From assembly GCA_945957395.1 (NCBI GenBank), contig CAMFKE010000002.1:248001-312000 (forward strand): a stretch of DNA of 64,000 nucleotides. Reading direction: 5' to 3'. The position numbers were made by a program, and so were the translations under genes. The notes beneath the pieces were generated by a model that searched no databases, was not told the origin of the DNA, and was given only the letters and a program-made list of their open reading frames with translations. The DNA is from an uncultured Opitutia bacterium (GTDB lineage: Bacteria; Verrucomicrobiota; Verrucomicrobiia; Opitutales; UBA953). This document shows, piece after piece, positions 16,119 to 18,650 of the stretch; positions within the stretch are counted from its first letter, which is position 1, and the number at the start of each line of letters is the position of its first letter.

Positions 16119-18182
16119 ATGACCCAATTCCGATCCTCGATGTCTCCCGAAGAGCAGCGGGAATTTTTGACCCACACGCGCCTGTTCCTCTCCAAGGACA
16201 TTAAGCGAACCCTTTGGAGCAAGGAGGTCTATGTCCTCAAGCACACGCCCACGGCCAGATATCTCCATATCTCCTCCGATGAGCTGTTCGTGCTCGGGTG
16301 CTTCGGCCGCGGATCCACCGTCGCCGAGCTCGTGCCGCACCTGATCATGAACAGGCGCTGCCCTCCCCTTCGCGACCTCTACGAACTCATCCTGCAGGCC
16401 CGCGACGCCAACATCCTCAACGAACACCGCGACGAGGAGTTCGCGCCCAACTACCCGCCCCGCTGGTGGCCCTCCGTCGACCGCGAGGCCGCACAGGCGG
16501 TGTGGTGGCTGTCCTTCTTCGCCGGCATCGTCGCCTTCTTCCTCTGGCACAAGCCCTACGGCGGCGTCTCCGACGCCATCGGCATGGCCTGGTGGGGCTA
16601 CCCGGTCATGTGGCTGCTTCTGGCGTCCTGCGCCTCGCTGGGCAGTCTGCTCGCCTCCGCCTATGTGCATCGTATCGGCGGCGAAGTGCAGCGCCCCACG
16701 CTCCTTTGGAGAACCCTTCTGCCCAGAATCAGTTGCGATTGGAGCGACTGCGTCATGGGCGGCCCCGAGGCGGCCGTGACGGTGGCCAAACTGCGCATCA
16801 TCCCGTTCCTGCTTCTCGCCGGCCTCTGCGCCGCCGTGCCCGGCATGCATGATTGGGCGGCGATCGCCATGCTCGGCCTGCTCTGGCGCATCGCCCCCTT
16901 CCCCGGCGGCCCCGCGGCCCAGTGGATGGAGGCGCGCCACCGTGAGCCGCTGCTCTCGGTGGTTCGCGGAAGTTTCTTCTACCACACGCCCAAGTCCTTC
17001 TCCTGCAAGATTCTCGCTGAAATGCGCGCCACCCAGTGGCCGTATGCCATCTGGCAGGGCGTCTATTCGGCGTTCTGGACCGTCCTGTGCATCTGGTTCT
17101 CCGCCACCCTCGTGACCGGCTTCTGGCTGGACGCCCTGCGCGAACAATCGGGCAAGGCCGCCGCCAAGGCGATGGTGGCGCCGACCGACATCATCCAGGA
17201 AATCTTCTCCGCCGACTCCCTCGAACTGCTCCAAGTGTTCAGCATGGGCGCGGCCGTCCTGGCCGCCACGCTCCTCGGCGTGCTCGTCTTCGCCTGGTTC
17301 AAAGTCAGGCGCGAGGAAGCCGCGTTCGGCCACACCGCCCAGCCCCACCCCGAAGGCAAGGCCGGCGGCGTGCTCGACACCTTCGACGAAAGCCTGCTCT
17401 TCCGTGAACTGCCCGTCGAGGTGCGCACCGAACTCGCCGCCCTCGCTCGCACCGTCAGCGTGCCCGCCGGCACCAATGTGGTGGGCCTCGGCGAACGCGG
17501 CGAAGACCTTTACATCGTACAATCCGGCGAGTTCGACATCGTCGGCCGCCGCACCAAGGGCGGAGAAAGTGTCATCGCGAGACTGCACCGGGGCGACGCC
17601 TTCGGCGAACTCTCGTTCTTTGGCGACCTATTCAGATCGCAGAACCTCAGAGCCAAGGGCCCCGGAACGCTCATCGCGCTCTCCGCACCCGACCTTGAGC
17701 AGACGCTGAAGCGCCACCTGAGCATCCCGGCCATCGAGGAGATCGTGCAGAAGCGCACCTTCATGCGCCGCATACCGCTCTCCGCCGGATGGGAACCGCA
17801 CTCCGTGGCGAAATTCGCCAAGTGCGCGCGATTCGAAAGCATGAAGGAAGGACAGATCATCATCGGAACGGGCCGCGAAAACCGGTTCTTCTACCTCGTC
17901 CATTCCGGCGACCTGGAAATCCGTCAGCGCGGCCGCAGGCGCGGCACCGTACGAGGCGGCGAGTTCTTCGGGGAAATCTCACTCATGCTCAACAACCTCG
18001 CCACCGCCGATGTCATCGCGGTCGAACCCAGCCGATGCCTGGTGCTTCAAAAATCGGACTTCCTCTCGCTCATGGGTCAGGACATCGAGCTGGCGCTTCA
18101 GATGGAACACATCGCCTCGCGGCGCCTCGGCCGCCCGGTCTTCCCCTTCCAAGGTTCCTCCATCGAAGCCATCGCCAACTGA
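16119..18182 (+). CDS. Membrane protein with PqqD-like start, degenerate M50-like core and two cyclic-nucleotide-binding domains
   Basis: A 687-residue protein. Residues 30-105 resemble the PqqD-like module in front of some M50 metalloproteases (LHISSDELFVLGCFGRGSTVAEL). Residues 125-395 hold about six membrane segments whose order recalls the YydH-type M50 peptidase: YVHRIGGEV after a helix, LPRISCDWSD, and LLWRIAPFPGGPAAQW where active relatives have NPLLRFDGYY. The zinc motif HEXXH is absent. Two cNMP-binding domains follow (about 425-545 and 550-665) with cassette motifs GDAFGELSFF and GEFFGEISLML. The first keeps a downstream Arg (FRSQN); the second reads LATADV where Arg is expected. 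The M50 relationship is inference from motif order; the cNMP domains are firm. Next gene starts 19 bases downstream, so they are probably co-transcribed. Confidence 0.78.
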   Translation: MTQFRSSMSPEEQREFLTHTRLFLSKDIKRTLWSKEVYVLKHTPTARYLHISSDELFVLGCFGRGSTVAELVPHLIMNRRCPPLRDLYELILQARDANILNEHRDEEFAPNYPPRWWPSVDREAAQAVWWLSFFAGIVAFFLWHKPYGGVSDAIGMAWWGYPVMWLLLASCASLGSLLASAYVHRIGGEVQRPTLLWRTLLPRISCDWSDCVMGGPEAAVTVAKLRIIPFLLLAGLCAAVPGMHDWAAIAMLGLLWRIAPFPGGPAAQWMEARHREPLLSVVRGSFFYHTPKSFSCKILAEMRATQWPYAIWQGVYSAFWTVLCIWFSATLVTGFWLDALREQSGKAAAKAMVAPTDIIQEIFSADSLELLQVFSMGAAVLAATLLGVLVFAWFKVRREEAAFGHTAQPHPEGKAGGVLDTFDESLLFRELPVEVRTELAALARTVSVPAGTNVVGLGERGEDLYIVQSGEFDIVGRRTKGGESVIARLHRGDAFGELSFFGDLFRSQNLRAKGPGTLIALSAPDLEQTLKRHLSIPAIEEIVQKRTFMRRIPLSAGWEPHSVAKFAKCARFESMKEGQIIIGTGRENRFFYLVHSGDLEIRQRGRRRGTVRGGEFFGEISLMLNNLATADVIAVEPSRCLVLQKSDFLSLMGQDIELALQMEHIASRRLGRPVFPFQGSSIEAIAN

Positions 18183-18201: not shown

Positions 18202-18606
18202 ATGCTCCCGGGAAAAGATTTCGAATACGAACGCCGCGTGGCGGTGGCCGACACCGACATGGTCGGCATCGCCCACTTCACCGCCTACCTGCGCTGGGTC
18301 GAGGAGGCCGAGAACGCCTTTTACCGCGCCGCGGGCATACCCTTCCTGGGTTCCGAACCGGACGGTTCCATCCTCGGATGGCCGCGGGTCTCGCTCAATG
18401 TCGAGTACCTCGGCCCGGTGCACTTCGACGACCAAGTGATTGTGGCGCTCTCCATTGTTCGCGACGGGCGCAGTTCCAGGGAGTGGAAATTCGACATCCG
18501 CCGCGCGGGCGCCGAGGCCGCGCCGGTGGCTCGCGGCACGATGAAAACCGTGAGGGCCGCCATCTCACGCGAGGGCAAAATAGCCTCGCGACCCATTCAA
18601 GGCTGA
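18202..18606 (+). CDS. Acyl-CoA thioesterase, 4HBT/YbgC family hot-dog protein
   Basis: A 134-residue single hot-dog domain. The motif VADTDMVGIAHFTAYLRWVEEAENAF matches the YbgC/4-hydroxybenzoyl-CoA thioesterase active site, with the catalytic Asp in DTDMVG. The second half gives the expected strands (VSLNVEYLGPVHFDDQVIVAL, then REWKFDIRRAG). Such enzymes hydrolyse acyl-CoA or acyl-ACP thioesters; in many bacteria one is linked to the Tol-Pal system, but no tol genes are present here. It follows the cyclic-nucleotide-binding protein by 19 bases and is closed by a terminator, suggesting a two-gene operon. The substrate cannot be predicted. Confidence 0.88.
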   Translation: MLPGKDFEYERRVAVADTDMVGIAHFTAYLRWVEEAENAFYRAAGIPFLGSEPDGSILGWPRVSLNVEYLGPVHFDDQVIVALSIVRDGRSSREWKFDIRRAGAEAAPVARGTMKTVRAAISREGKIASRPIQG

Positions 18607-18623: not shown

Positions 18624-18650
18624 AAGCCGGCCCCCGGGCCGGCTTTTTTG
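18624..18650 (+). terminator. Terminator after the thioesterase gene
   Basis: Perfect 10-bp stem AAGCCGGCCC (18624-18633) and GGGCCGGCTT (18636-18645) running directly into TTTT, a strong intrinsic terminator. Confidence 0.9.

Follow-up and report, generated by a model that had tools for sequence, protein, structure and literature searches.

YydH, EpeP and TglG are M50 proteases of peptide maturation, and pseudo-enzymes of intramembrane proteases, such as the iRhoms and EGY3, are important regulators in eukaryotes. Some ribosomal peptides are matured by M50 proteases, and EpeP is thought to act in export as well (PMC10885120). In the M50B protease SpoIVFB, a C-terminal CBS module sits on a linker that engages the substrate (PMC11486902), which serves here as an analogy. 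The PqqD-M50-HlyD peptide metalloproteases (NCBI 'PqqD family peptide modification chaperone') carry a PqqD-like start followed by a membrane core. We found the same order in a protein of 687 amino acids that is encoded in a 64,000-nucleotide stretch of DNA from an uncultured Opitutia bacterium (hereafter the window). We searched the open literature for papers that combine cNMP domains with PqqD/M50 or C39 ABC exporters, and found none.

Gene context and distribution of the family

The gene and its downstream neighbour are located as follows:
16119-18182, plus strand: coding sequence of 687 amino acids with a PqqD/RRE-like domain, a pseudo-M50 membrane core and two cNMP-binding-type domains (ORF, Pfam, homologues)
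18202-18606, plus strand: 4HBT-type thioesterase (Pfam 4HBT, E 2.9e-8), 19 nt downstream of the coding sequence

The reading frame begins with the ATG at 16119 and its stop codon ends at 18182. It is a genuine gene, with relatives of matching length and domain order in other genomes. When the whole protein was compared to Pfam, the two cNMP domains were the sole matches (PF00027, E 1.6e-33, in two stretches); NCBIfam returned only sub-threshold matches of the cNMP type, and the PDB sequence matches, which were regulatory domains of PKG and PKA as well as HCN channels, covered residues ~400-670. Residues 1-400 had no match in the Pfam, NCBIfam or PDB sequence searches. The core, too, had no Pfam or NCBIfam match, and both the PqqD-like start and the M50-like core fall under the Pfam thresholds.

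Using residues 1-410 as the query, we detected the family in 49 of 373 Opitutales genomes, where its distribution is patchy, and a few members were found in other classes. The contigs carrying the gene include those of Cerasicoccus, Opitutus, Lacunisphaera, Rariglobus and other Opitutales. This search found no second copy in the genome of the window and no member in the other 36 genomes that belong to its taxonomic family. Relatives are mostly 640-720 amino acids long, have the same domain order and are 19-30% identical. Furthermore, a phylum-wide search with a full-length profile resulted in a sharp split between family members (E <1e-80) and proteins that share only the cNMP domains. For the comparison of residues we used an alignment of the window protein with 43 relatives (44 sequences). 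In the tree, the branching of the members mostly follows the taxonomic families, a pattern that suggests vertical inheritance and numerous losses. The window protein forms a long branch that is joined to another long branch, and its exact place is unsure.

In the window, the gene has prfA upstream and the thioesterase downstream, and a gene for an SNF2 helicase is a further neighbour. The thioesterase is probably co-transcribed with it, and the first-pass annotation had proposed that the two are coupled. This coupling is unsupported because the neighbour is not conserved: despite the 19-nt gap, no examined relative has this thioesterase beside the gene, and we rejected it as a functional partner. 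Likewise, none of the examined family members has prfA or the SNF2 gene as a neighbour, and prfA is also missing beside the thioesterase homologues of the window's taxonomic family. Within 8 kb of family members no conserved operon partner was found, and neighbours were shared only among closely related strains. Repeated neighbour 'families' that overlap the gene on its opposite strand or in other frames were discarded as shadow ORFs. In several genomes from two taxonomic families (L006, L048-L050), the family member is preceded by a ribulose-phosphate 3-epimerase-like gene.

We detected no sigma-70 promoter of the consensus type between 15900 and 18760. Just past the thioesterase gene, at 18625-18645, a GC-rich inverted repeat followed by a T run was noticed by eye (the terminator scan gave no report of it); it may end the transcript.

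N-terminal domain and membrane core

Two parts precede the cNMP domains:
16140-16442, plus strand: PqqD/RRE-like winged-helix domain, residues 8-108 (VIA Z and top Foldseek matches)
16464-17327, plus strand: six-helix membrane core, residues 116-403, with the site-2 protease (M50) fold in residues 116-330 (structure and profile comparison)

We modelled residues 1-412 with AlphaFold from 32 aligned sequences (mean pLDDT 85.2, pTM 0.81). In this model, residues 8-108 form three strands followed by three helices, as in the PqqD/RRE fold, and the structural matches of this part (VIA Z) are TigE with 11.0, ThcOx with 8.9, MccB with 8.3, TbiB1 with 8.2 and PqqD with 6.8. Residues 8-108 are a PqqD/RRE-like domain, for which leader-peptide binding by strand addition is a candidate function. 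A PqqD-like start had already been suggested in the first-pass annotation, and both the structure matches and the independent profile comparison described below bear it out.

For the membrane core, the highest structural similarities (VIA) among membrane proteins were found to SpoIVFB (Z 7.8 and 7.7), RseP (7.0 and 6.8) and MjS2P (6.5), where values below 8 can reflect a common arrangement according to the warning of the tool. Among membrane proteins, only site-2 proteases exceed Z 6, and the next unrelated one is ZnT1 with Z 5.2. As an independent test, we compared sequence profiles, using as the M50 reference set proteins from other Opitutales genomes that have a PqqD-like start and an HlyD-like C-terminus. 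With hhalign, the profile of the 43-sequence family matched the PqqD-M50-HlyD profile with a probability of 88 and E 2.8e-6, and the match extends colinearly over the PqqD-like domain and the core. The core alone gave a probability of 96.8 and E 3.8e-10. As controls we used a reversed M50 profile, two unrelated membrane proteins and five M50 profiles with shuffled columns; none of them scored better than E 0.14.

The clustering of all M50 entries together with the profile evidence argues that the core is of M50 descent, whereas the Z scores of 6.5-7.8 would be middling on their own. A chance resemblance to M50 might be suspected from these grey-zone scores and from the sequence identity of only ~10-15%. 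However, such a resemblance would have to produce a colinear profile match with clean controls, rank all listed M50 structures above any other membrane protein and leave the sister architecture described below as an intermediate, which we regard as extremely improbable. The pseudo-M50 reading of the first-pass annotation is thus supported by independent structure and profile evidence, and neither an unrelated membrane fold nor the lack of a PqqD-like domain was found.

In the full-length model (mean pLDDT 83.3), the long last helix runs into the two cNMP domains. We infer a topology with the N-terminus inside. With six helices in this orientation, the inner loops contain 3-6 Lys+Arg and the outer loops 1, 0 and 3; since the third outer loop carries three Lys+Arg, the loop charges favour this topology only slightly.

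Loss of the catalytic motifs

The places of the two M50 motifs were assigned from hhalign and family columns:
16632-16646, plus strand: ASLGS, residues 172-176, where M50 proteases have the zinc motif HEXXH in the second core helix; neither His nor the Glu remains
16893-16916, plus strand: APFPGGPA, residues 259-266, at the place of NPxxxxDG; the Pro is kept and the Asp zinc ligand is lost

HEXXH is absent from the window protein and from all 43 aligned relatives, as the first-pass annotation had noticed for the window protein. Across the family (n=44), the column of the Glu contains Ser or Thr in 41 sequences, and the columns of the His residues are mostly Leu/Ala/Val and Tyr/Ala/Ser. The protein also has no NPxxDG or NPxxxxDG with the Asp. 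What had been described as an NP..DGY-like block survives only in its proline, as Pro260 is invariant (44/44) but the Asn and the Asp are gone. The CDWSD block reported for the core is present at residues 206-210, and its last residue, D210, is 91% conserved.

Since the zinc ligands and the Glu are missing in all 43 relatives, their loss is a family trait. Judged from the sequences, cleavage by the M50 mechanism is excluded for the window protein, which has lost all zinc ligands as well as the catalytic Glu. By its defining motifs, this M50 descendant lies outside the peptidase family. It could be argued that a new catalytic set has arisen in the old M50 cavity and that the protein is an active enzyme or transporter; the conservation of the family across several Opitutales families does imply that the core has some function. 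However, we found no group of conserved His, Cys, Asp or Glu residues that could form another metal or catalytic site in the core of the 44 sequences, where D210 is the sole acidic, His or Cys column conserved to at least 90%, and we consider an active core very unlikely.

We also searched for relatives with the same architecture and an intact HEXXH, as the first-pass annotation had proposed. Neither the family profile, run against 388 genomes from the phylum, nor the sister profile, run against 179 genomes from a class, retrieved such a version with cNMP domains; the nearest are the sister proteins, which keep the Glu and have no His. A HELVH in a deep family member (L211:1513-3615, plus strand) lies further along, in the loop that corresponds to the second motif, and not in the pseudo-HEXXH helix, and is probably due to chance.

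A sister architecture

Via the tandem cNMP module we reached a second architecture (INTERMEDIATES) of 1010-1096 residues, which comprises a PqqD-like start, a pseudo-M50 core, extra helices and two C-terminal cNMP domains:
Members of the sister architecture: P0002; L185:10139-13372 (minus strand); L184:6958-10044 (plus strand); L203-L207

The domain order is the same as in the window protein. Unlike in the window protein, about 350 extra residues with further helices are located between the core and the cNMP domains, the motif Glu is kept in several members, and the cNMP cassettes of several members are near canonical. The profile of the sister core matches the window family with E 8.8e-21 and true M50 proteins with a probability of 99.1 and E 1.7e-17. 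At the place of HEXXH, several members have RELLR, RELVV, REMFL or KEVTR, and an example of the second motif is CPFLCNDLY; both His are gone, and the Glu, or the Asp of the second motif, is retained. At NPLLRFDGYYILSDL, several members have CPFLCNDLYVAIRDLLD or similar. On this evidence the sister architecture bridges the window family and true M50 proteins, and the motifs of both look like a stepwise decay of the protease.

Cyclic nucleotide-binding domains and cyclases

The C-terminal part of the protein contains:
17454-17717, plus strand: cNMP domain A, residues 446-533 (PF00027)
17601-17654, plus strand: phosphate-binding cassette A, residues 495-512, FGELSFFGDLFRSQNLRA, with E497, R506 and S507 kept (family columns)
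17796-18086, plus strand: cNMP domain B, residues 560-656 (Pfam and NCBIfam)
17967-18020, plus strand: cassette B, residues 617-634, FGEISLMLNNLATADVIA, without the phosphate-contact Arg (family columns)

We take Glu497, Arg506 and Ser507 to be the positions of CRP Glu72, Arg82 and Ser83. The phosphate-contact Arg of cassette A is thus present in the window protein (R506), and 29 of the 44 family sequences have it, whereas the cassette itself is atypical (FRSQN vs PRAAT). In cassette B the Arg is found in none of the 44 sequences, with A628 in this column of the window protein, so that its absence from the second domain, noted in the first pass, extends to the family; the Gly-Glu pair is retained in >95% of sequences. 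The deep relatives L210 and L211 have a canonical cassette A (PRTATV) and already lack the Arg in cassette B, and therefore the loss at site B is probably old in the window family.

One candidate source of a nucleotide was found in the genome of the window:
G000:C9:36404-36946 (L115): class III cyclase with a CHASE2 sensor domain, the sole class III cyclase found in this genome

This cyclase is a possible source of the nucleotide. Class III cyclases are present in 43 of 49 genomes with the family, compared to 121 of 324 others (Fisher p 1.4e-11, ignoring phylogeny and genome size), and absent from six family-bearing genomes; we regard the co-occurrence as supportive only. Sensing of a cyclic nucleotide, as proposed by the first-pass annotation, is plausible rather than proven, given the residues kept at site A and the cyclase in the genome, and so is signalling through it.

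A different reading is that both cNMP domains are degenerate and serve as protein-protein or dimerisation modules, and that the protein is a constitutive, nucleotide-independent scaffold, a membrane adaptor or inhibitor to which a protease substrate or partner binds, similar to inactive rhomboids. In line with this, the Arg is lacking at site B in 44/44 sequences and at site A in roughly one third, cassette A of the window is atypical, and class III cyclases are absent from some of the family-bearing genomes. It fits less well with the Glu, Arg and Ser at site A of the window protein, with the conserved Gly-Glu pair at site B and with the enrichment of cyclases among family-bearing genomes, and we consider it rather unlikely.

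Two N-terminal cNMP domains were also observed on C39-peptidase ABC exporters (L181:7092-10232, minus strand; L182:9294-12401, plus strand; L183:1835-4936, plus strand; L208; L209). In L181-L183, the exporter is followed by an HlyD-type gene and a gene for a sigma-54 activator-type ATPase (checked with Pfam in L181, with similar ORFs in L182 and L183). These three loci look like an operon for a cyclic-nucleotide-controlled peptide exporter.

The window protein could itself be an accessory of peptide export or maturation, descended from PqqD-M50-HlyD proteins, whose RRE-like domain captures a ribosomal peptide for a transporter under cyclic-nucleotide control. The RRE-like start, the closest profile homology being to PqqD-M50-HlyD proteins, the related tandem cNMP modules on exporters that are followed by HlyD, and the role of M50 proteases in RiPP maturation, with EpeP thought also to export (PMC10885120), are all in line with this. 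However, no precursor peptide, exporter or HlyD gene was found to be conserved beside family members, and the neighbours in the window are prfA, the thioesterase and the SNF2 helicase. We consider an accessory role clearly unlikely.

Proposed function

We propose that the 687-amino-acid protein descends from site-2 proteases (M50) and is now a membrane pseudo-protease that cannot cut by the M50 mechanism. The PqqD/RRE-like domain and the tandem cNMP module are predicted to be cytosolic and to flank the six-helix core. The RRE-type domain and the old substrate groove suggest that a peptide or membrane-protein segment may be bound without cleavage, and the cNMP module suggests second-messenger control: a cyclic nucleotide at site A would change the state of the protein, whereas site B is probably structural or an altered site. 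Our best explanation is a receptor or peptide binder in the membrane that has no catalytic activity and is gated by a cyclic nucleotide, and we see its chances as evenly balanced. Against it count the unusual cassette A (FRSQN), the absence of the Arg from roughly one third of family members, and the lack of a conserved gene partner that would hint at a pathway or peptide substrate. More tentatively, and at somewhat less than even chances, the Verrucomicrobiota family with its two architectures and its traceable decay from M50 may consist of intramembrane pseudo-protease receptors that unite an RRE-type peptide-binding domain, a dead site-2 protease core and tandem cNMP domains, and in which a second messenger controls the capture or release of a peptide or membrane protein with no cleavage involved.

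If true, this would be a bacterial site-2 pseudo-protease family tied directly to a second-messenger domain, and its intermediates would reveal the route of active-site loss. The family allows a direct test of cyclic-nucleotide control of a site-2-protease-type membrane core.

Comparison with known systems

When comparing the window protein to the PqqD-M50-HlyD proteins, we find that HEFGH and NPLLRFDG are intact in the latter, whereas all ligands are lost in the former; furthermore, the C-terminus is HlyD-like in the PqqD-M50-HlyD proteins and a tandem cNMP module here. The bacteriocin-type transport-associated protein TIGR03896 has a cyclic-nucleotide-binding-type domain in common with the window protein (residues 556-660 matched), which is not a member (45.2 bits vs a cut-off of 161.05). 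The plant chloroplast protein EGY3 is similar in being a site-2 protease homologue described as a pseudoprotease; unlike the window family it has been reported only in plants (PMC9355673), and the comparison made here covers its pseudoprotease status. Lastly, SpoIVFB and MjS2P share the membrane fold with the window protein (Z 7.8 and 6.5), but have an active zinc site and no PqqD-like start. As in the window protein, a C-terminal module of the nucleotide-sensing type lies past their last helix, which is CBS in these proteases (PMC11486902) and cNMP in the window protein.
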